A stretch of DNA of 64,000 nt from Dactylellina haptotyla (Eukaryota; Ascomycota; Orbiliomycetes; Orbiliales; Orbiliaceae). The position numbers and the translations under genes are program-made. The notes under the pieces were generated by a model. The model searched no databases. It was not told the origin of the DNA and saw only the letters and a list, made by a program, of their open reading frames with translations. Of the stretch, positions 15,488-63,691 are shown piece by piece (the stretch's first letter is position 1; the number at the start of each line of letters is the position of its first letter). The stretch is taken from NCBI GenBank assembly GCA_031310005.1, contig CM062379.1, forward strand, positions 1,612,001 through 1,676,000, in the 5' to 3' direction.

Positions 15488-18400
15488 CACGAACGAGGAT
15501 CACGAATCGCTCACCAACTTCCGTTCACATGGTAGCTTTCTCACTCCAAAAACCCGGGCACGTGCGTCATAGCCCCTCTCCTCATATTTATTGCGTCCAG
15601 GGACGGTGTAGGACCTACCGTCACGCCATGAATACCAGGATTTTGCCCTTAAATGCAATATTACTCCCTCAGTTTGGCTTCAGCCTTTCACTCCTGCATT
15701 AATTATGAAAAAGGGAGAGAAAAAGATACAGCCGCGGTAGAAATTGAGCATCGTCTATTAGCCAAAGCTCAACCAATTCCCCATCTTTTTGCCTTCTCGC
15801 CTTTGGATTTAAACTTTGGTTCGGTATCTGTGGGCTAAATAGGGTGAACGGCAAAGAGAAAACTATGCAGACGGCTGGTAGCGTTTATTATTTGAGCCTG
15901 TCGCTGCCGTCGAATCCACTTCGCGAGCCGCTTTTATCATCATGAGGTTTTTTTTGTGGACGGTTCCCCGCTGTAACTATTGATCGTGAGCCCTAATATC
16001 AGAATGCCTATATTGTGGAGAATTATATTCCGTATCTCAATCTTTACTATGTAATCTATCTGAAAGCGACAGTTCATTTTGCTTGTGATAACAGAAATGT
16101 TTCCAGACAACAATTGCCAGCGAGATTATAAGTTAATATCGATTTATCGAGGGTATCCTTGATTGAGACCCAGTTCTTGGCAGGAACCAAAATTGATGCT
16201 TGATCGAAAATCAATTGAGATTCTCCACTTGCAACTTGCGCATTGACATTTGAAGAAGAAATTGTCCGGCGGGAGGGGTAACGCCCGTTAAAAAAGGCTC
16301 AATGAATCGATAACAACTCGAACAGCCAGGACGAGGTCCAAAACAAATGTCTCTCTGGGCTTGCAATTGCCGACTATTGCATTACGCATACGCATGAGGG
16401 ATAAACGTCAGAAGCTAGAAGCCCTGGGCTTAATGTGATCCGATTTCAATTCGAAACATTCTAGAAGCCAAAGAGAAGGTGCCACGATACATGTACATGT
16501 ACAAGTCGTCATTAAAAAAAATGCATGGTACATTTTTCAATGCAAGGAGAAAAATGAGGGTAGCAATCACGATAGCCATATCGGTGAGAGGGTTTGGTGT
16601 GTCAACTTGGACGAACACATTTTGCCGGCAAGAGAAATGACATGGGTGGCAAGTGTTGCGGCGTCGCCATTGCGGAAAAGCGTTAGCCTGAGGGCTTGGT
16701 AATAACGGTGCACCTTCCCCTAACAGGTTAAGCCTTACATTCTCCCGGCGAGCCGGTTTCAGGTTCAACAATCCTCCAAAGATGCGAGGAAATCTCGCTG
16801 ATGAACAGGATCTTCACCCGGAAATCGAGGTGGCCCTCCAAGGTGTAACTCAAATGAGAAGGACCCCGGTGTCATGGAAGGATTTGAAACTTCTGGAAGG
16901 GACATCCTGCATAAGCTTTTTGTAGGGGGATGGAACATTATTTGTCGTTTTGATGATTGTTTTTTTTTCTGCTTCGAAGCATCCCATCTTGGCTCTTCTA
17001 ATGGCACGAGTCCAGGGAGCGTAAGGGGATAAAGAAAAATGCTGATGTGCAGAAATTTGAGTTTTCGAAATTAGGACGCCAGAAGCTTCAACATGAGTAA
17101 GGGCGTTGGTTAGTTCAGCGCCATGGGCTCTAGCAGAACGCCCTCGCATAGAGTTCATGAGGGCGGTTGCGAGCAGTTCAATTTGTGGCTTGCATTTGCC
17201 ATTCGAGTTCAGCTGCCGGTTGCCCCGAACTCGTGTACTTCGGCTAGGCCCGCCGAACTGCGTCTGAGTGGTAACATATGGTACGCACGTGGCTGCCGTA
17301 CAGCTGCACGGAGTCTCCTGTTTTGTTCCAGTTCTCAAATGCTGTGAAATCAGTTGTCTTCTTGCCACTACCTTTGGCTGACCACCGGGGTACCTTTGAC
17401 TGCTGTCTTTGTAGTTCCTCAACGTATTGTGGGGCGAAGGGATGGGAAGGAACTTGTGTCCTGGGCAGATCAGGGCGTTAGTGTCCCAGAGCTCGGGCCA
17501 GTTCCAACACAAACGGGAACAACGCAGCGAATGGACAGTGGATATCGAGTTTACGATAGGCCAAAAGACGCTTTCATTCTCTTTAGCATGTCAAATTTGA
17601 GACGGCTCGATTATAATGAAGCCACTTATAGCTTTTCCAAGGGTTATATTGCCCAAAATCACTATGGTTGTATATCAAATGAATATTATTGCGCTGTCGG
17701 ACTGAGTGTCTTAATCTTAAAACTGATAGACAAAATGAGGTTAGTAAAAAGCCTACGCTCCATATCGCACAGAAAAACAGCAAAGTAACGTGATTTGAAC
17801 ATCTTTAACGAGAGGGTACAATAAGAAAGGTCCAACTCTCCGCGAACCGTTAACCTGGAATATTACTAAGAGAGCATCGTGCTAGTATGCTCAAATGCTG
17901 TCCATATCAAGCAGTTCTAATATCTCCTTGTCCGCTTCCTGGTGTTACATTTTGCCGAGTGGAGTATTATAAGAGGATGTGGCTACAGCACTACCCGATT
18001 TGTCGCGGAAGCATAGTCAAAACTATAAACTGCCGCGATATTCGATTGCCAGGCTTTGATGTGCACGATAAGGCTATGGAGATCGAGGGATCTTTTGGAT
18101 GGGCATCCAACAACAGCAAGCCATTTATGTGTTGCTCGAAGAAGTCAATTGATAACCACAAAGATCGCTATGTCTCTTCCCAATTCTAAATATCTCTGGA
18201 GCGAATTTATACACAGAGTGCCAGAATCCAGGACAAGCCTTTCATTATCGTGCCAATGCTGAAACGCGTTATATTATATGCGTTTGCTTCGGACATTTCT
18301 ATCTGCTTTTACATGTCCGGCCGGCCGACGGGTCAATCTCGAGTTCGTGCTGCGATCAGAGTATACCCTGAACCAAGCTGACGGGGTATGCGAAAATCAA

Positions 18401-21400
18401 TTATCATATTTGAGATCACAATATTGAATTTTTATTTGAGGCAATATGATCCATTTCTTATTCAATGTGCAAAATATACGTGCATCGATGCTGGTGCCTC
18501 GTTTGCACTGGTAATCTTGTAACGTGCTCCCCCGGATTTCTGTTATAATCCTCACCCCATCACAATCTCTCGCGATGAAGCAGGTCGGTATAAGAGCTTT
18601 ATAACCTATAAACAGCGCCGCAGGACTCCAAGATCACCAGCATGTATACGTGTATATACGTGAATTTCATGCACCTCAAATGTCTATCACTCTAAGACTC
18701 TCGTCCGTCCAACATATGGACACGTTTGGCTCTCATATCGTGTATATAAGATACTGTAAAATCTCGCATGCTGTTGACACACTCTTCCATCATGCTTCGT
18801 ATTCTTCAATCAACACATTTACCACGTTTGGATCTCAAAAAGTGGTTGACTAGTAATAGACAAGGTAAGCATGTTCTGATACCACCAGTCATGGAGCGGT
18901 TATACACGATCTTTCCTTTCGTCCTAGCTATAACAACTAGGCTCGTCTTACATCAAACTGTGGTACCTCCTCTTGGACAAGGAAAGGCAGATCTGATGAT
19001 ATATCTCATGTTCCAACAGGTACCCCCCCGGCTGCTCACAGATACGACGTCGCGAGCACAAGGCATTTTCGGTTGAGCGTAAAGAAGGGCCAACAATATA
19101 CTATCTGTAAGGGGCGAACCTTTAACAAAAAACAAAGTGGTATAGAACCAATTTTGCTGGTAAGTAATATTACTCTTTTCCGATGAATTATTCTCAAACC
19201 CGGACATAAGGCCGCGATGTTACAAAGGCGAGATGAAAAAAAATCCTATACGACCCGAGGTCGGACTTGCCCCTTGTCCAAGGCCTTCTGCTCAACGTTT
19301 CACATGTTGGCAACCGACACAGGTTAATGACACCTCTTGACGGTTCCATTGTAGGCTGAGCAGCGGGGTTTTCAGGTATCCAAGAGTACCACCCTTTCTT
19401 GACTTTCCTATAGGTCAAACGGTATTTTCTGTTCGAGTGGTACGCTCATCGATATGAGAACAGAAGATCATTCTAGACCCCGCCTCACACTGACGGGTTG
19501 GTTTAGGCTATGTCAATTCATGTTACCGCTCTGCATATGTGCCGCGGTATAGCATTTCTTCCATTTTTATTTGGGACAGAAAGGCTTGAGCTCGATCCGT
19601 GACTTGTGCCACTCGCTTTCTCAGTCGTCGGTGTCTTGGGTCATCCATCCCATATATAGACCGAATCACAGCGAATTTAGCCTTCCAGTCTAAACAAGAA
19701 AAGAAAATTAGTGAGTTTAGTTTTTAAATTCCTTTCACTTCTGTTTTGGAAAAAAAATGTCGAACGATTCATTTATTCGGTTTAAGCCACGGTTTCCATG
19801 TGTTTTATTGTTCTGCGAATGTGGTTTTCGAGTTTACCCAGACGATTTTTTAAATTTCGTTCCAAGCTGCTTCAGAAGTCCAACCTTCTGGAAAAGACAT
19901 GGATGGAGGGATCTTTTTTCCTTTTCCCTCTTTCTTTAATAAACCCTGGTTTTTTGCGGGAAAGGTGGTTGCGCAGACATAGAGGGGGAGATAAGTTCCA
20001 CGACATTTCGTCCAGGGCATATCACCCGTTCGCCTCTGGCCTAGGGAAAGCTAGGGGTCGAGAAAGTCAATGCACTAAATTTCTTTTGCGGGAGAAATCA
20101 AGACCAATCTGCAGAGCGCAGGAACCTAGACTTCGGATGGGGGACTGATCCTGGTCGACAAGGCCTGGGGGCATCTTTTCTATGTAGAACCACGGAATTT
20201 TGAGAGGGGTTATTCTCTTATAATTTGGTACGGAAAGGCACGATATAGACAGCACTCGCCGATGTTCGTTGGGCGTATGTGTGTGAGTGCATGTCTCTCC
20301 TCTCCGCCCGCTCTCTGTATGGAGGAGTCGTACCCGTGCCGGCTTGTGAGCAGAAATACAGCAGAAAGAGGGGTTGCTCAGTCCCCTCTTGATTTGCGCG
20401 CGAGTCACTTGTGTGCATGGGGACGGGCTTCAGATGGTTGAAACGTCGCTTGCTTGCTCGCATCAGCCACTTGGACTTCAGATAAAGGACCGTCGACAGA
20501 GGCGGTTTATTCATCTGTTGTTATTAAACGATAATAATACCGAACTTGCACAGACCTCAGACGCCTCAACGTTTCGCGGTTTTGAAAGAAACTGGAGAAA
20601 ACAGAGTCGTCTTGTTTTTTCTTTTTGAAGCAAAAAGTCAAGACAGTTCGTTTGATTCGATTCAGTGCCTAATTACCCACGTAGCACGAAGCGTTGGATT
20701 ATTATTATAATAAGGCATCATCGAGGAATAAAGCCAAGCAAAGAGAGACTTTAGAGATACATTGTCCAGCCCCCCCGTCCTTGCTTTTTATATGTTGGAG
20801 ATCATCTTTCTGTTGTCTTTTGGAACTTCTCTACTCTTTTCCCTTTCTCTGTCGCTTGAAACATACCTCAGCTTGTTTAAAAAACCGCTATATTCTCCTT
20901 TCGATCCCGGGAGAGGTCCCTGAAGATTCCTTCCCCCGTTGAAAGCCACCCCCAAGCTTAGCCTTCTGGGACTGCCTCAGCATCCGTCCGTCCCATGAGA
21001 TATCCCGGCAAAAGCACCTTAAAAACCTCGTTGCAAGCCAGCAAATTGTTCTTGCAGCAAAAGCAGAGAGTACCTGGTCCTGTTCTGAGGGTGTCTGGTT
21101 TTTCTGTCCTGCTACCTGTTCGCTATCCCCCTTTTAGGCGAATCTTTGGCTTTTCCACCAAAAAGAAAAACGATTCCAGCATTGTGATTGACGTTTGGGG
21201 GGAAGGACTCCACCCTTCGCGCTGCACAGTTTCCGCACACTGGCTAGGCTCTCCAAGTCCAAACTCAGGTACGCCAACTAACTTTCTTTTCTCGACAGTA
21301 AGGAATAACATTTAAATAGGTCGGACCTTCCGACGACTAAGTTGAAAAAGGCTGAACTGTCACGAAAGAGAGCAGAGCAGAGTCAGATTTTGGTACCAAT

Positions 21401-21855
21401 CACAGCGGCCACCCCGCCAACGGAAGCCAAAAAGTTGACAGCTTGATCTCCCGATAGTCTCGGTGTCCAGCTTGGTTAGTGTGATTTTTGGCCGCTTACT
21501 ACTGAGAGGAAGAAGAAACGAAAGAAGGGCTACCCCGGCAAACTCGAGCCCTTCATAAATACTGTATTTTCTTATTCCGCTAGGACAGACAAGAAAAGCA
21601 AAGAAACAAAAAAAGAGGCTAGTCGGTTCCGTTCGACGCAGAACGGACAGACACAAGAAAGACCGGACAGACACACGGAACAGGTTGCGGGGACTCCACC
21701 GAGGCTCAGGTCGCCCTCCCCTTCCCTCCTTTAAAGCTTTACGGATCCAGAGAAAGTGTGGCCGCTGCCCTGCCCTCGTGGGAAAATCGTGCGAAGTGGA
21801 GCCAGGCTACATACATCCACCCATCCACCCAGACCTACATACACACCCATACATG
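15488..21855. other. gene-poor region of 6.4 kb
   Basis: I found no convincing gene between the VOC gene and the presumed leader of the bHLH gene. Several frames of 60-220 codons exist, the longest at 16850-17512 on the minus strand, but they lack domain character and splice support. Parts such as 17580-18860 are AT-rich. From about 19700 the sequence becomes pyrimidine-rich with short tandem repeats. The region could hold distal regulatory DNA for the bHLH gene, non-coding RNAs or decayed repeats; none can be shown from sequence alone. Confidence 0.5.
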
Positions 21856-21903
21856 CCTACATACTACATACATACATAATAGAGACTAGAGGGACGTCCT
21901 GGA

Positions 21904-21920
21904 CATCCATCCATCCATCC
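21904..21920 (+). repeat. (CATC)4 microsatellite
   Basis: Four perfect CATC units; neighbouring sequence 21810-21880 is a looser mix of CATC and CATA units. Confidence 0.9.
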
Positions 21921-22364
21921 AGAGGAGACAGGCATAGTACAGACTCGTACAGAACCACATATTCTGGCGGGCCCAATTCGAACCCACAACTCCTGATCCG
22001 ATCCCTCAACTTCCATTCCCGGCGTACCTACTTCTACTACGACGTTCCCTTCCTTCTCACCCCCTCTTAATAACCTGTACGGAACCTGACGAGACTAAAC
22101 CAACCACACACACATCGTCTTGTTCTGGCTGGCCTTCCAACTCTAGAAAACCAAACCCTTTTCTTCCTTTTTTCTTACTTTCTTTTCTGGCAGTCTTCCT
22201 CCGTCCTCGTCCTAACCTCTTCGCCAGCGAGAGAGAAATTCGGAAGGCGAGACTCGATAGTAATAATAATCACGCCGACAAGAAGGAGAGACACAGGGAA
22301 AGAAGTTTGTTATTCTGATCGTATCGAGGAAACGAAACGAACCACCCTTTACGGCCCCCTCACC

Positions 22365-22380
22365 GTTCGTTCGTTCGTTC
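22365..22380 (+). repeat. (GTTC)4 microsatellite
   Basis: Four perfect GTTC units within the presumed bHLH leader. Confidence 0.9.
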
Positions 22381-22604
22381 TTCAGTTCCATCGATCGATT
22401 CGTCCTTCTCTTCCATTCTTTAGACTTTTGGGGAGCACCGCCGCCACGGCAGCCTTAGCGAAAGGGAAGGGAAAGGCAGATCAGACACGTTTTCCACGTT
22501 TGTTGAAATTTCTTTATTTCCACCAAGCTTTCTGCCCACATTCCTCAAGCGGCCATTTAAATTTGAGGAAGGAGTCTGCACGAATACGGGCGAGCCCACT
22601 TGCT

Positions 22605-22624
22605 ACCACCACCACCACCACCAC
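22605..22624 (+). repeat. (ACC)6 microsatellite
   Basis: Six ACC units plus a partial one, within the presumed bHLH leader. Confidence 0.9.
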
Positions 22625-22995
22625 AATTACTACGGCTAGTACGCTTCGATTGTACCTACAACCACCTTGGCTGCGGATAGGAGCAGAATACGGGCCTACA
22701 AAACACGCACAGTACCCTCCAACTGACAGTCGACTGGTTTGTTTTACCGCCTAGTTTTTCGACAGTTTCGGATTCCGACACTGCTGTGCTGTTTACTGTC
22801 TCTCCTGCTGGCTGCTCTCGCGCTACCCTCCGTCCCTGTGCGGCCTGCTCTTCGGGGCACCTTTTGCGTTGCGCCCTCTTTCGAACCCGCCGTCCTTCGT
22901 CGTCCTCGCCCTCGCTGTCGAAAAGGAAGAGGAAGAAGTCCGTTCTGACCGTCAGATAGACAACAACCAGTAATTAATATTAATCTCCCGACAAG

Positions 22996-24964
22996 ATGAG
23001 CGGTGGAAGTCAATGGGAGCCCCGCGATGGCGCCCACGCCGGCGGCAGCGATGGAGGCAGCTCTCCGATGGCGGTTGAGAAGCAGACCCTCCCGTCCATA
23101 TCGAACCTCACCAACTCAGTCCCGCCTCTGGTCCCATCGCCAGGTTCATCAGGCTACTCGCCCTCCCAGTCGTCCGTCAAGACCGACACCAGGGACTCCG
23201 GAAACTGGTCCATGACCACTGCTAGCAATCGTATGTTCACCCCCAAATACCTACCTATCTATCTGCCCCTTTGATATTTATCTTTTGAAAACCTCATGTT
23301 TCTTTACCTTTCTTTTTGCATGCATATCTGTATCCACTCTCTGAAAATATTCATATATTAATGACTGGAAATTGTGCAAAATTTACCGGACTGACAGACT
23401 CGTCCTTCTCATCGCCTATGAACCTCTCAGCTATGACACAGGATAAATCAAACTCGACCGCAGGCAGAGGCTCCATGCTCAATCCTGACTCTCAACGGGA
23501 TTCTCAGTCTCTCAACCCTCCGTATGGCCCTCCTCAGAGCGGCCGTCACCACAGCCACTCGCCTACCGCTGTTGCTTCCCGTCTCTCTAATCTTTCCACC
23601 ACTAGTCTTCACTCGACTACTCGTCCCCCTCCAAACGTTCTAACCAGTCCGTATGGTATTGATACTTCACCTTCAAACTCTCGCCGATCTAGCTTCGACA
23701 CCCGCCTTTCCGCGCTTCAATTGAATAGTGCCCAAGGGACGCCGGCCGCTAGTCAGGTATCTTTAGTGAGCCAGCTTCAACGTGAACGAAGTGGTGGATT
23801 CGGACAGGGATCACCAGCACCCTCTATCATGGAGGGGGGCCAACACCCTTATACGCCCGTCAGCCCAAGTGGGCACTATCCGACTCCTAGTGTTAGCAGT
23901 GCTGGTAGCGGGCCTCGTAGCAGCTTCGGATCGTCGACGTGGTCCAATAACTTGCCCCCAACATCTCACGCTTCGGCAGCGGAACGACCAGGCGCTCGAG
24001 TTGCGCCACCGATTATCGGTTCTTCTAGATACCCTTACCCACATCCTAACGCCCCTTCCCCGACCAAAGGTTTCCCATATGCTTTCCCTGATCCTGATGC
24101 TGCAGGACCTACAGCGCCAAATAGCCGCGAGGGACTTAGTGGAACAACAGGACACACTCAAATCGGTGGTCCGGGACAAGCTGGTAGGCCTTACGGATAT
24201 CACCAAGAATCATCTGCACCTCAGCACTCACAGACTTCTCTTTACTCTCAAGCATCCAACTCTACCACCGCTAGCTCGCACCATGCACATCCGACATTCA
24301 ATCAAGGTTCCTATCAGGAACTCCACCATCACTCGCTGCAACGCGGCCCCTCTAGCGTTGGTTCTCCGTCTCCTGCCACTCCATACTCCCGCACCCCTGA
24401 GCTCAGAATAAGTCACAAGCTCGCGGAGAGAAAGAGGAGAAAGGAAATGAAAGAACTCTTCGATGAGCTAAGAGACGCTCTCCCTGCTGAACGTGGAGGA
24501 AAGAGCAGCAAATGGGAGGTTCTGACCAAGTGTAAGTTAACAATTCCCGATGCATATCTTTTTGAATCCCAATGTTTTTTCTTCCTTCTTTCGGCTTGCT
24601 AACTTGTGTTTTTCTTCCTCTTCCAGCAATCGAATATCTCAATCAAATACGCCACCAACAAACTGCGCTTTCCGATGCTAATCACAGTCTCACATCCGAG
24701 AATCAGAATCTTACATCTGCCAATGATAATCTCAACCGGGAGCTGGAGCGTTTGAGACTTGAGTTGGCGAGGGCCAGAACAGGTCCTCCACCGAATAACG
24801 ACAGCCACTATGCTCCAACTAGTAATGGTGATAACTATCCTCCTCAACACGGACAGCACTATGGTGGTAGTCATCAGCCGCACCAAGGCTATCAACCTTC
24901 ACAATCTCGACCACCAAATTCGGACGGAAATCAGATGCAAGGCATCGAACGTTCAAACTATTAG
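22996..24964 (+). CDS. bHLH transcription factor, Esc1/DevR-like
   Basis: Exons 22996-23230, 23398-24531 and 24627-24964 (introns 167 and 95 nt) encode 568 residues. Residues 1-410 are Ser/Pro/Gln/His-rich and disordered, typical of a fungal regulator. The basic helix-loop-helix spans about 415-465; the basic region shows His418, Glu422 and Arg426, the H-x3-E-x3-R pattern of E-box (CACGTG-type) binders. The second intron sits inside the domain and its removal restores VLTKSIEYLNQI in helix 2. A coiled coil of heptads (about 467-506, ending RELERLRLELARA) follows and should mediate dimerisation. S. pombe Esc1 and Aspergillus DevR, with similar domains, act in sexual or asexual development, so a developmental role is inferred. 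The gene has a 7.5 kb upstream gap and a presumed long leader, as is common for developmental regulators. Confidence 0.88.
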
Positions 24965-30179
<5,215 letters not shown>

Positions 30180-56683: not shown

Positions 56684-59600
56684 TGTTATGAGTAACTAGG
56701 TGGACGGACGCTGAGAAGAGATTATGAAGTATTGGGAGTGAGTGTAACTCGAAGATATCGCTCGAGGAATATATAGAGGAAATGGAGGTAGATATGAGCC
56801 GAGGCTGGAACAGAATTTTATAAAGTTCGATTGAGAGCTGAGCAGGATCGCTCTAGACCTGAGGAGAACTGCCTACGTAAGCTACCTCTATCGCGACAAA
56901 CTTCTGAGGAGCGAGTGTCCGATATCTGCAGCGGTAGACTTCAAGAGGTGCGATATCGCTCGGGGATGTGGGAAACGCAACCCTTTTCGGCCGACACCCA
57001 ATTATATGGTTGTTATCGCCTAGGGATTGCGTAGGCAATGTTGGTGTGGATTGGCAAGTATATCCTGTGATATGTATAAGGCTCGCGGAGATGTACGAAG
57101 GAACGCCGACGCAAAAGACTGTATTCTGCAGGAGGAGGAGACGTAGGATCTATTCGTATGCATTGATAGGTAAGCATCTATATCACCAACCCGGAAAACA
57201 TAGTAATGCGATTCAATTACGTAGCAGCGCCAGTTAGAACTAGAACTCGCAAAGGGATTGAGGCATATAAAAGAACGAGTAAAGACGACGAACTATCCGC
57301 GCAAGCCCCTTTCAGACTATGGATGAGAACAGCGCGAGATGAGGCACGGGGTAGCATGTAGACAGTATGCGAACGCACAAAGAGTCAGAGGTTTGAAGCG
57401 GGACGGAGAAGAATGCTCACCAGAAAGATTTTAAGAAAAATGCGAACCCGAAACCCCTCTTACAAAGTCCAGGCTGACGACCATGTGCTAGCAAGCAATA
57501 AGATCGACGGATCCTGCCAATTGATCGCAGGGGATTTTTTCACCTTTAGCGTTGGGCGAGAAATTCCCGTCGACAAGGGGAGAATAGTAGAAAATTGCCT
57601 GCGTTCTGTCTCGTTTGTCCGGCCAACCTGCCCAAATGACGAGGAACAACGAAGGAATGTCGCGCTGGACGCGTAAAGAGTTAGCCCTCAAAGTCCGCGA
57701 GTTCACGTGGTCAAGCCTCCCCCTCTTCCTCACTTCTTGCTCCGTGTCTGAGTGGGTGGGCTGATCGCACGTTTGAGGACCAGGAAGGGTGCTAGGGCCG
57801 TTGTGCGAGGCACCTTCTTCCTTTCTTTGGAGGAGAGCCAGGAATTTGGAGGATTTGACGGGCGGGAAAAAACCCCTTCTTGAGAGGGCTCGGATATTGT
57901 TGTTTCGCCCACTTTAATTCCCGAGCTTATGAATGCTGTCGGCGAGATCGAGTCATACGACGTATCCTGTGACGATGGCGATAGCGCTTCCGGCCTCTCG
58001 ACTGACAGGACCAGAGGAATGGATGTGGGGGGAAAAGTACAATTTCGAGGTCTTGATCGAAGTCGTGAGAGCCCCCAACTGGATGTTTGGTTGCTGCATA
58101 ACAATGATGGATAATTTTCGATGCGGGATAGCACCCAGAGGAACATCCGACCTCATTAGCTAAGACAAGCTTAGAGCTTGCCAAAGAGAAAAAAGGTGAA
58201 ACTGCGACCAGATTGGAATAGTGTCCACAGATGTTGGAAGCTAGTGCAAGTTGGCTGTTAGAACCCCTCCTCCCCTGCTGCTAATAGGGGCCATGATTGG
58301 GCGACAGGACAGGATGCTGAAAAATCTCGCTGCGCATCGTCTGGTCCCTGGCCTGGACTTGAACAGGATGGGGGAAAAGTCCAAAGAACAGTCTCAGCAA
58401 GGACCCCATGGAAGTTTCCGTGCAAAGCAGATGCATGCTATCACCATCTTCTTTCGTCGAGGAGTTATACTCTCACCAGGGAGCCTCTCCAATCACTCAA
58501 GCCCGTTGGTCTCGCAAGCCGCGCCCACGATGCCCGCCTATCTGCTCTCGCTGGCAGCCGAATTTCAAAGCAGCGGTGGTGATTTCTGGTGTTGAGAAGG
58601 TGGTGTGGGGATCTCTCAATTAATCCGGATATGCAACCACCACTCTCCCACCTGCGCGGGTGCGGGAGAAAAGCCTAGATTTTGGGAGCTGACTTCGGCT
58701 GTTTGAGATTTTCTATCTGATGGCTTTTCGGAGAAAGCTGGGGTGCTTGCTTGCTGTTGCATCAAACATGCGAGGAAACATGTCAGCCATACTTTGGCCA
58801 TGCGCTCTGGGGGTGGTTCCCGAGCGTAGACGGTTCGAAACCCCCCCCATCAAAAGGGGCGGCGGCGCCCACCAACCTCAACGACTCGCGGGTCGAGATC
58901 TGTGATATTTAGATCGGGATCACGGACGGCTTTCTCGCTGTAGAGTGGCTTCCTGCAGGAAAGAAGTTTTCGACCGAGCGGATTGGAGTTGCTATTTGGA
59001 TCGGGGTTGCTGGGAATATGAAACACGCAGGCGATGTTCGTGATATCATCAAGCAAGGGCGGCCAACTCTCGCCTCAATAGCCATGGCCTGGCCACAATT
59101 AATCATCACAGTCAATGGCCACCGTACAATTACACAGTGATTTTCTATGCATGTCGTATCAATTGCTATCGCAGAGCAACCCGTCGGTGGTCGATCGGGT
59201 GCAGTTTGTGATTACGTGAACTCTATTCGGGCATCGATGAACTTCCACTCGATCACGGACAACACCATGCACATCGCACCCTGTTTGTAAAAGTTTGAGA
59301 AGTCACTGATATCACAACAAGCTGAGAAAGTCAGGCATTATTTAGCCCCACCGAGAATAAGAAATGAAAGCCAATTTGTTGGCCCGGAACCAAACGGCCG
59401 GGTTCATGGGTCCGTAAGAACGTCCTCTTGGCATCGGACTGGGATTGGATCCTTTTCATTTCACCACCCCAGCAGGCTAAAAAAAAATTTAATCACAACA
59501 TGAGAGAGGTGGCATGGCAGGGAAAATAGCCCAATTTGGGGAGGAAGGTAGAGATGCATTCCTCAAACAACGCCTTTGCCAGAGCGTGCTTCAGGGATGT

Positions 59601-60285
59601 GAAGGTGAAGGTGTCGAGGGTCGATATAAAAGCAATTCCGCGGTCTGTGGTCTGTGTACTATTACAGGTTGTACATGTAGTATACTGTGGATTGTGGTGA
59701 CTTTACCCCACGTTGGTGTGATTCGCTCGTTCCATTGCCTGACAAAGGTACTCTCATGCTCAACGTCTAAGACAAAATCTTCAACCCGCCATATGAAAAC
59801 AGATGTATAGATACGAGCTAAAATATATCTTGCTTGGAAACCCAAATACTTATCAGTGAGACAGTTCTTGCACGGCCCGGGAGGTTATATATGTATCTTG
59901 AGCCTTGGGCTTACCCATCACAACATAACTTTGGATCTGATATGCCATCATTAGGGTGAATTTATCATCATGGCCAATAAAATGGCATCAAGCAAATGTG
60001 CAAACGTCAAGCCAATCGAAATACACCCAGTGCGGAGTCGATAAGAGATGCTGCTCTCAGCGTAATCATGCCATTTTCAACTTGTCGACTAACACTAACA
60101 TGGTAGTAGCAAGAGCCTGGGTTGTAGCGTCTACGGCAAAGATTGACAAAAAAAATCCAACAGCCTTCTGGGGTACAGTACGAGAGGACTGACCGTTCTG
60201 AGCGATAGCTGATTTTTTTGCCATTCGCTCGCTACCAGCTTGGGAGCAGGTATCTGCGAGCCTTTTAACCTCATGCAACTGCATG
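56684..60285. other. divergent intergenic region of 3.6 kb, no gene seen
   Basis: This is the promoter side of the kinase gene plus unassigned DNA. Frames such as 57730-58146 (minus) and 59514-59810 (plus) are short and lack protein character. The sequence is of mixed composition without obvious repeats. Confidence 0.5.
56768..56776 (-). promoter_or_regulatory. candidate TATA element of the checkpoint kinase gene
   Basis: On the minus strand TATATATTC lies about 88 nt before the start codon. Confidence 0.35.
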
Positions 60286-61493
60286 GAGGTTCTTTCGCTA
60301 AGGCCCAGCCAGGATCCACCCATCCTTTCAAGGGCATTTTCTTGGGCTCTGACTTTTTTTTTTTCCTTTTCCCTGGCAGTTGCAAACCAAAATTTGCTAT
60401 CGTTCGATCGCTGGCGGAAGTTTGAGAGTTCGGTCTTTTGGCCTTTCCTCGACACACACACATTCTCGCACTCTCCCTCCACACCACAGGATCAACACCA
60501 ATATAATTTTCTAACTGCAGTCGACCCTCTTCCCCTTCCCCTTCTCTCTCCTTCTCCAACCACTCCCGTTCCAAGTTTATTTATCTCTTCCCTTTTTTAC
60601 GGTCTACGATATTCTCTTCCCTCTCCTCTACTGTCTTCTCCGTGCTCCTTCCCTCTCTCTCGATCTGTCCTCTTTTTTGTCGTCGTCATCCCTATAGACA
60701 CATACATATATATACACCGACGGTTTATACTCGTCGCCACCTGTCGTCTATACCCTGCATTAGATATAGATTTCTTGTGTCCTCTGCTCCCGAAGTGAAG
60801 AATTTCTGCTCTCCGTGACTGGTGAACGCCTTTTCTTCTGCTCGTTTCCTGTTTCTCAGTTGTCGTTGCCGTTGTTGTGTGCCCGATCACATTCTTTGGG
60901 ATCACCCTGCTTTCCCAGTTGCGTCGCAGGGCTCCGTTTTGAGGCGGACACATCATACCGGACCCAGTCCAATATTTACGCTTACGACGGTGTAAAGGGG
61001 GTAAGATAGGTCTTGGACCGGGCCTGCCCTTGGAACCATAGTGTTCGGCTAGCGAAAAAATAGAAGAGCGAATCCGAAGGAAGAAAAAGTTGTTCCATTC
61101 CGGAAGGCTAAGAGGACAAACAATCTCCAGACCCCAGTCTTCCGTTGTGTCCGTCGTCTTTGATCGGGGCTTTCGAGCAGGGGCTTGGAGACCAGGGCTG
61201 TTGTTTTCTCTCGCTCTGTGCCTCTCCTCTCACACCCTCTCCGTCGTCCAAAATTTGCTGGCGCTGGGTGTCACCACCGCCGCTTCCTCCCTTCATTCGG
61301 CCGTTTTTTCTCTCTCTCTCCTGTTCTCCCTTCTCCTCCTCCCTCTCCCTCTCCTTCCCATCCCACCGCCATCGCCAACACTGTCGCCAACCTCGCACTA
61401 CCAACACCACGAAGACTACCTCTCCGGTCTCTCTCTCTTCCTCCCTCGGCCGTCGCAGACACCCGTAGCATCGTTTCTTTGACTAGTATAACG

Positions 61494-61508
61494 ATGTGCA
61501 TGGTGTGA
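61494..61508 (+). promoter_or_regulatory. minimal uORF 1 (Met-Cys-Met-Val)
   Basis: ATG TGC ATG GTG TGA: two in-frame starts and a stop within 15 nt. It lies about 600 nt before the main start, in a region otherwise nearly devoid of ATG. Confidence 0.4.
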
Positions 61509-61732
61509 ACACTGTGTCGCCTTCTAGTTTTCTCCGATACCGTCTCTTGCCGTGCTCACCCTGCGGCGCCATCTCCACTAATTTTTTTTGGTGTTGCGGC
61601 GACATCGCTTATTAATCCCCCCAATCACTCAGCCTAACCGCCAGCTGTCGACGTCGACACAACACTTTCCTGCTTCCAGCTGCTTCCACGACCTCCTCCC
61701 TATCAAAATAGCATACACCACTAATCCTTTTA

Positions 61733-61756
61733 ATGACCGGAACGTTTCCCTGTTGA
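61733..61756 (+). promoter_or_regulatory. short uORF 2 (7 codons)
   Basis: It encodes MTGTFPC and ends at TGA at 61754-61756. It is the only other upstream ATG in the last 1.8 kb before the gene. Confidence 0.4.
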
Positions 61757-62110
61757 CAAATCTCCTATCTCCAAAAATCGCACAAAAAAGTTGTCTGTCG
61801 TCTGCTCCCGTCTGCTCTTTCTGTCCAGACTTTTTGTACTGCTGTAATCCTTGACTCTCTTGTTTTCTTGTTTTTTCTTGTGGTCTCCGAATATACATAC
61901 ATACTATACTATTAATATATCACCCTGCTGGATCCTTGTCCTCCCACGCCGACTCACCAATCCCACCTCCATCGGCAATCATCACCACCTCGATCACGAT
62001 CATCAGTGTCCCTTCTCGTCGACTGAAGGACACCTTCCAACAGCTCCAACTTCGTCCACTCCTTTCCAACCCTCGCCGCCTACCTCTGGTTTTCCGACGT
62101 TTGTTGCAAC

Positions 62111-63691
62111 ATGCCGAACAAGCACTATCTCTCAGAGTCGGACACCTCGCACGCCTTCCCTCAGAAACGCCATACGTCCGCTCCTTCTCGATATACGCCC
62201 ATCCAGGCGCCTCAAACCCCTCTTTACAGTCCCATCACACAGGCCCCGTCGCCGATATCTCCGAGCAGAGATGACGACATCATGATGTTGGATAAGCCTG
62301 AGCATGGCCCGGCGTCACCGGTTGATGTCTACGAGTCCGCTCTCCTGACCCCCCAGGAAACAAAGAGATCTACTGAGTCCCCTCCCGCCATGTTCCAATC
62401 TCCTGTCCAGTCCCGTCCCGCAAGCCTTGATGGCCGCCTAGCGGAACTCGCCCAGAAATTCTTGAACACCAACATGGACTTGGACATGATGGAAGATGAA
62501 TCCGATGATGATCTAGGTTCTGAAGCCGATCTTTCCACCCCGAAAGCTCTCATGACAAAGTACTTCAACCAAACCGACCTTAACCCGGATGTTATCGTTC
62601 TCAAGGCCACCATCGAGATGTTGCGCAAGCGTCGTCAGCAATGTCTTACGGACATTGGTTCGCTCTCTCGCATGAAGGAAACCGCTCTCGCTAGGCCCGA
62701 CCGCTTTGCCGCAAGAGTCGTCGCTGCTTCTCGTGGGGCCCAGAAGACTAGCGTTCATCAGGGCAAGCACCACTGGAAGCTCGAAGAGAACGGCTGGGAG
62801 ACTCCCGGCCCTCTTGAAATCCCTCGTGTCCCAGAGTTCGAATGGGCCAAGTACGGTGTGCCTTACATCTACAAAAACCCAGACTCTGTTGTTCCAACCC
62901 CGACCATTCAGTCTGTTCATTGTGCATATCCCTCGGCCAGCGTTCAAGAGATGATTAATCCAAACTCGACCAGGATGACCACCAGAGCTGTCAACTCCGC
63001 TCGGTCTGCCGCTAACACGAAGCCAGTTGCCCAGCAAGGCTTCAACATCCGCACCGGCTTGGACATGGTGACAAGACAAAAGAAGAACAACTTGATGAGC
63101 TACTCCAACCCCTTCATGAACGAGTTCAACCCTACTGCTCGACAAGGCCGCCTGTTGTCTGTCGGGTATGCGTCTTAGAACGACCCAAACCTGAATGGGC
63201 ACCATGAACTGCACTACCCAATACCCAATCTGGGAACGGTGTATGACCCGCCTATTCGCAATAGGGAAGAAGCAATCGAGTTTTTGAAAACATTTATCAA
63301 CGAGGATGCGATTCAGAGAGCAGAACGGGCCGTGCCAGCCAAACCTCAGGGCGTCAGATCGAGCAGGAGCGATCGCGAGATAATCGGACAGGTGTTAGAT
63401 GATACTACGGACGTAAACACTCCTATATCATCCGGGATTCGATCCAAGGGTAAACGATATGCGTCGATGCCTGCGAAGCTTGGCGGAAACACCTTGCAGC
63501 AGGGAAGTGGTCGGGAGTTCTCCGAGATGGAAACTCCTTCCATTACATCGGCCCCGAAACGTTACTTCTTGCCTCGTCGCTATCCCGCCTCTGCATTTTC
63601 GAGCCGAACAGCTCTTCAAAAGGACTCCCAGGCTTCTATTCGAAAATCTCCACAGCCGAGGGACCCCTCCGCGCCCAGACCTCATTTATGA
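62111..63691 (+). CDS. unrecognised protein; in-frame stop removed by a proposed 3n intron
   Basis: The frame runs from the ATG at 62111 to 63691 with one TAG at 63176-63178. I propose an intron at 63166-63264 (donor GTATGC, acceptor CAATAG, 99 nt) that removes the stop and keeps the frame, joining RLLSVG to EEAIEFLKTFINEDAI and giving 493 residues. If it is not spliced, the product is 355 residues. The N-terminus is Ser/Pro-rich with several SP/TP sites. An acidic patch (MDLDMMEDESDDDLGSEADL) is followed by a helix with LRKRRQQ. The segment LEIPRVPEFEWAKYGVPYIY looks folded. A basic Ser-rich tail ends the protein. I do not recognise the family. The long leader with small uORFs suggests translational control, which would fit a regulator. 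Confidence 0.75.

Follow-up and report, generated by a model that had tools for sequence, protein, structure and literature searches.

A stretch of up to ~2.5 kb on the plus strand, which ends exactly at the start codon of a predicted bHLH gene, carries far fewer ATGs than its composition predicts, and we consider it probable that this stretch is the unspliced, scanned 5' leader of that gene, purged of upstream AUGs. Four features of the sequence lead to this reading: depletion on the sense strand, its end at the start codon, its sharp upstream edge and the lack of any GTRNGT splice donor. A preliminary description of the same DNA had proposed that selection keeps upstream starts out of a very long 5' leader; that idea remains the best explanation, but the putative leader extends to ~2.5 kb rather than 1.1 kb and retains three upstream AUGs.

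Results

The bHLH gene and its genomic setting

The window, meaning the whole stretch of DNA analysed, comprises 64 kb (C1:1612001-1676000). The genome it comes from amounts to 39.8 Mb and 11 contigs, ten of which measure 2.4-7.8 Mb and one 250 kb; positions below are those of the window. The small contig (C11, sampled as L012; 249,811 bases) has a GC fraction of 0.21 over its first 10 kb and, from this low GC, is probably a very large mitochondrial genome. The HET domain has 8 matches in the genome, two of which adjoin and may be one gene; with the genome size and the presence of introns they point to a filamentous fungus. A search for FB_lectin gave no match, a negative that is uninformative. 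The gene under study was modelled as follows:

22981..22983, plus strand: in-frame TAA, 15 nt before the bHLH start (from the sequence)
22996..23230, plus strand: exon 1 of the bHLH gene; donor GTATGT at 23231, codon score 0.19, start context gacaagATGA
23398..24531, plus strand: exon 2, which encodes the greater part of the bHLH domain (splice model; HLH E 3.6e-13, residues 415-464)
24627..24964, plus strand: exon 3, to the stop codon (splice model)

According to the splice model, the ATG at 22996 opens a three-exon gene for a product of 568 residues, in which HLH (PF00010) is the sole Pfam domain (49.5 bits against a cut-off of 20.7, E 3.6e-13). The best solved relatives of a 99-aa piece of the protein are Max proteins (E 1.4e-08), and by the Pfam criterion the gene is predicted to encode a bHLH transcription factor, whose bHLH region we take to resemble that of fission yeast Esc1. 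A literature search on the gene's family returned nothing that could be tied to this gene. The in-frame TAA at 22981..22983 rules out an unspliced N-terminal extension of the protein from a non-AUG start.

Extent and strength of the ATG depletion

The features upstream of the start codon are:

20435..22995, plus strand: ATG-poor stretch, putative 5' leader, with 3 ATG and 34 CAT in 20437-22995 (change point, local shuffles)
20792..20923, plus strand: residual upstream ATG opening a 43-codon uORF, T at -3; codon score -0.07, not coding-like
20995..21315, plus strand: residual upstream ATG opening a 106-codon uORF, C at -3; codon score -0.05
21853..21879, plus strand: residual upstream ATG in a CATA-type microsatellite, opening an 8-codon uORF, T at -3 (sequence)
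21856..22995, plus strand: absolute ATG desert of the preliminary description, 1,140 nt (counts, shuffles)

The plus strand carries ATGs at 21853 and 22996 and none in between, so that 21856-22995 holds 0 ATG and 16 CAT, which confirms the first description. The accompanying estimate of ~18 ATGs expected by chance was too high because the segment contains 352 C but only 222 G; shuffles give about 4-6. Dinucleotide shuffles of the whole segment lead to an expectation of 6.3 ATG and reached 0 in 2 of 2000 runs, and local shuffles in blocks of 60, 100 and 200 nt gave 4.8, 4.4 and 4.7 ATG, with 0 reached in 3, 2 and 5 runs per 1000, respectively. Taken alone, the lack of ATG in this segment is significant, not extreme, and ATG ranks only third by triplet z (-2.45), after GGT (-3.55) and TCA (-3.1). 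Shuffles of the entire window (n=100, 64 kb), which correct for our having picked the longest gap, gave a longest ATG gap of 450 nt on average and 671 nt at most, as against the 1143 and 1211 nt observed. The dinucleotide-matched shuffling that had been proposed as a check rarely reproduced 1.1 kb without ATG.

These coordinates are too narrow, however, and the real ATG-poor feature is longer and stronger. Upstream of 22996, plus-strand ATGs occur at 21853, 20995, 20792 and 20434 and are dense beyond, and a two-rate model places the ATG change point at 20435 (interval 20435-20550) with a log-likelihood gain of 24.6, whereas eight other triplets reached at most 7.1, at other places. Within 20437-22995 there are 3 ATG against 14.6, 16.6 and 16.1 expected from 60-, 100- and 200-nt blocks (14.6-16.9 overall), a count that 0 of 1000 shuffles matched at each size, and ATG has the lowest z (-4.85) among the 64 triplets. 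Upstream of the originally described segment, 20437-21852 shows the depletion in its own right (2 ATG where 10.6 are expected, 0 of 1000 as low; 17 CAT). The upstream flank 17601-20433 is at a normal ATG level (52 against 50.2 expected), as is a downstream control at 24970-27700 (40 against 35.4). Relative to dinucleotide-matched shuffles the sense strand shows the depletion expected of an AUG-depleted leader. The loss begins abruptly at its upstream edge, stops where the start codon is reached and is framed by normal flanks, as the boundaries of such a leader would be.

The depletion had also been called strand-specific, with CAT retained. This holds for 20437-22995, where CAT is not depleted (34 against 29.2 expected), but within 21856-22995 the contrast is less firm and rests on few CATs, since 9 of the 16 sit at 21860-21933, inside a CATA/CATC microsatellite, and CAT is likewise missing from 22557-22995, the last 439 nt before the start. 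The microsatellite (21800-21935) is also the source of the ATG at 21853, and CAT has its own weaker change point at 22555 (log-likelihood gain 7.1).

An unlikely alternative is that the transcript starts near 22996 and that composition and chance have made ATG scarce in what would be a pyrimidine-rich promoter region. The segment 21856-22995 is indeed C-rich and G-poor, with only 4-6 ATG expected, TCA and GGT are depleted as well, CAT is absent close to the start, and tracts rich in pyrimidines, potential promoter elements, are found along the whole stretch. Composition of this kind should, however, be reproduced by 60-200 nt block shuffles that preserve it, and these fail for 20437-22995 (0 of 1000); moreover, ATA, ACA and CAT are not depleted there, and the upstream flank is normal. 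Because ATA and ACA are in excess in 20437-22995, we also rejected the idea that ATG was lost through the run structure of purines and pyrimidines, or through a general scarcity of purine-pyrimidine-purine triplets, although GTG, another such triplet, is somewhat low (13 against 19.9 expected).

Other depleted and enriched triplets

Avoidance of AUG leaves the depletion of TCA and GGT without an account. Both have a lower z than ATG in 21856-22995, where GGT occurs once against 10.5 expected and TCA 8 times against 18.2; GGT is scarce perhaps because cryptic splice donors are avoided in a leader that is not spliced. TCA is low on the sense strand of 20437-22995 (25 against 41.5) and of a second ATG-poor stretch described below (60286-62110; 21 against 39.3), in which its z of -4.5 lies beneath that of ATG (-3.5), and CCA is in excess in both. 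In four long deserts outside the window the TCA loss is weaker (pooled ratio 0.79 against 0.87 in the sample). CTG is over-represented in 21856-22995 (25 against 15 expected), an excess that is partly arithmetic because loss of ATG raises the other NTG triplets in such shuffles.

Splice signals and residual upstream ATGs

The preliminary description held that no large spliced leader intron is present, and the finding that 20401-23230 contains no GTRNGT donor supports this. At the plus-strand rate of the window (1.19 per kb) the chance of finding none in 2.56 kb is ~0.05, and the absence depends in part on the loss of ATG, as GTATGT contains this triplet. A large intron inside the stretch, which would leave little of it to be scanned, could draw on five sites that resemble a branch point plus acceptor (20669, 21278, 22212, 22723 and 22945), yet with no matching donor, and with no reason to expect selection against ATG within an intron, we regard it as quite improbable.

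All three residual upstream ATGs have a pyrimidine at -3 (T, C and T), whereas the main start at 22996 has A. Starts at the end of long deserts have a purine at -3 in 6 of 6 cases, as against 1 of 6 residual upstream ATGs in the two stretches of the window (P 0.015, Fisher test), a comparison that was picked post hoc and in which four of the six desert-ending ATGs are not verified gene starts. If all transcripts started at 20.45 kb, the 106-codon uORF at 20995 would be burdensome; starts further downstream may dominate.

Coding potential and RNA structure

Coding use of the stretch was considered and rejected: two of the uORFs and four open frames, drawn from both strands, score between -0.04 and -0.17, under the range of the training set of 29 long open frames (mean 0.14, lowest -0.001). 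Rfam gave no match within the 64-kb window at gathering thresholds, and ARAGORN, run with the bacterial code, reported no tRNA. A separate non-coding transcript in the stretch, or a peptide started at a non-AUG codon, could be suspected from a 226-codon open frame (22074-22754) and from the CTG excess, partly arithmetic as it is; but the plus-strand open frames, at -0.07 and -0.04, fall below the training minimum, the TAA 15 nt before the start interrupts the frame, and with the negative Rfam search added we judge such a product highly improbable.

The claim that the long leader points to strong post-transcriptional control found no support here. Over 22000-22995, the last 996 nt of the stretch, the predicted fold (-253.34) is very close to the mean of 20 shuffles (-253.48; z 0.02), so that this part shows no excess structure, and the absence of upstream AUGs does not imply such control; it predicts unhindered scanning rather than repression.

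A second stretch and other deserts in the genome

Elsewhere in the window a comparable arrangement was found:

60286..62110, plus strand: second stretch poor in ATG (3 observed, 12.6 expected), which contains a 1,211-nt desert (counts, change point)
62111..63178, plus strand: 355-codon open frame after the second stretch, no Pfam family (open frame, Pfam search)

This stretch is pyrimidine-rich, contains the 1,211-nt ATG gap at 60283-61494 and ends at 62111. Its ATG change point lies at 60285 (interval 60105-60395), with a gain of 19.2 against at most 6.9 for other triplets, of which TGA, GTA and TCA have weak change points close by; the preceding control, 57201-60282, has 60 ATG against 58.9 expected.

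A census of both strands of 304 kb of nuclear sequence, from which L001, being a duplicate of the window, and the GC-poor contig L012 were excluded, yielded ten ATG gaps of at least 600 nt, seven of which reach 800 nt, three in the window and four outside. The gaps outside (240 kb) measure 1781, 955, 861 and 800 nt and end at ATGs that open 186, 390, 131 and 88 codons, respectively; the four ATGs are likely gene starts. The frame after the longest gap has an arrestin N-terminal domain, and the other three have no Pfam family above its cut-off. This desert before the arrestin-domain frame (L003, 3567-5348, minus strand; 1,781 nt) is longer than the one before the bHLH gene. The shorter gaps, three of 600-799 nt, run up to ATGs whose frames have only 50, 17 and 38 codons. 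One gap of at least 1143 nt per 240 kb outside the window extrapolates to ~160 genome-wide, with a very wide error. As a control with permuted triplets, gaps of at least 1143 nt in the 304 kb, both strands, number 3 for ATG and 3 for TAG, as against 0 each for AGT, GAT, GTA and TGA; the tie with TAG speaks against the leader reading.

Most starts look different. At 32 starts picked by codon score, each with at least 120 codons in its first open frame (a set that leaves out the bHLH gene, whose exon 1 gives 92), the AUG-free run has a median of 100 nt and a maximum of 955 nt, and ATG is on average depleted no further than 100 nt from the start, with 28 there and 41-63 in each 100-nt bin upstream. 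That AUG-free runs are short at most sampled starts is a further point in favour of the promoter reading set out above. The 8 loci with an HLH match, 3.1-3.2 kb each and centred on the domain, have a longest ATG gap of 378 nt, but as a test for a group of bHLH genes that share the feature this comparison is blind, since loci cut in this way miss the leader even of the gene studied here (L030). Leaders of such length form a rare but recurrent tail in the genome and are not special to the bHLH gene.

Discussion

Our preferred reading remains that the ATG-poor stretch is an unspliced leader, with transcription, scanning and selection deduced from the sequence pattern. The region from ~20.45-20.55 kb to 22995 would be a 5' untranslated leader without introns, or the span of several transcription starts, through which pre-initiation complexes would scan from the cap to the AUG at 22996. 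Ribosomes would be captured by any new AUG on the sense strand, at the expense of bHLH protein yield, and purifying selection would remove such mutations, while the opposite strand, being unscanned, would keep its ATGs. Leaky scanning could pass over the three AUGs that remain, none of which has the purine at -3 that favours initiation.

More doubtful, as a conjecture that we think unlikely to hold in full, is a class of genes with unspliced leaders of 1-2.5 kb that lack AUG, TCA and donor-like GGT/GTRNGT and are kept long, for example for timing or conditional scanning, with multiple transcription starts deciding whether a transcript contains the weak uORFs at 20792, 20995 and 21853.

With its interval of ~115 nt the ATG change point is sharply placed, which suggests that the likely 5' end of a very long leader can be read from sequence alone, and a change-point scan could serve as a cheap search for long leaders in fungal genomes that have no RNA data. 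For the bHLH gene itself, the pattern would mean only that a long leader is tolerated and stays readable.

Depletion of AUG in 5' UTRs is itself established. A survey that covers 478 eukaryotes, including 242 fungi, reports that no triplet has a lower 5'/3' UTR ratio than AUG and that uORFs are generally depleted (PMC7889888), and the 2.56-kb stretch is similar in that AUG is its most depleted triplet by z. The difference from that survey is that here the depletion covers ~2.5 kb in one putative leader, whose UTR status is read from the DNA. Very long leaders are likewise known from regulators of morphogenesis in Candida albicans, for which 5' UTRs of 1,139 nt (EFG1), 2,071 nt (CZF1), 3,041 nt (UME6) and 2,978 nt (WOR1) are given; there the leader raises translation of EFG1 and lowers that of UME6 and WOR1, tight structure is suggested as possible for the latter two, and Efg1 is termed bHLH-type (PMC6034079). 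The bHLH gene resembles EFG1 in having what appears to be a very long leader on a transcription factor gene. For EFG1, UME6 and WOR1, effects on translation are reported, whereas the present leader is predicted from its sequence. In Histoplasma, transcripts with longer leaders include those of 14 putative developmental regulators, leader length shifts with cell type and some leaders bear ribosome density (PMC4503680); the common element is the long leader on fungal regulator genes, with the difference that the AUGs here appear to have been purged, as the sequence of this one gene suggests. AUG depletion in 5' UTRs and leaders of 1-3 kb on fungal regulators were already known, and the present case adds one more example, in which the depletion covers an unusually long stretch.
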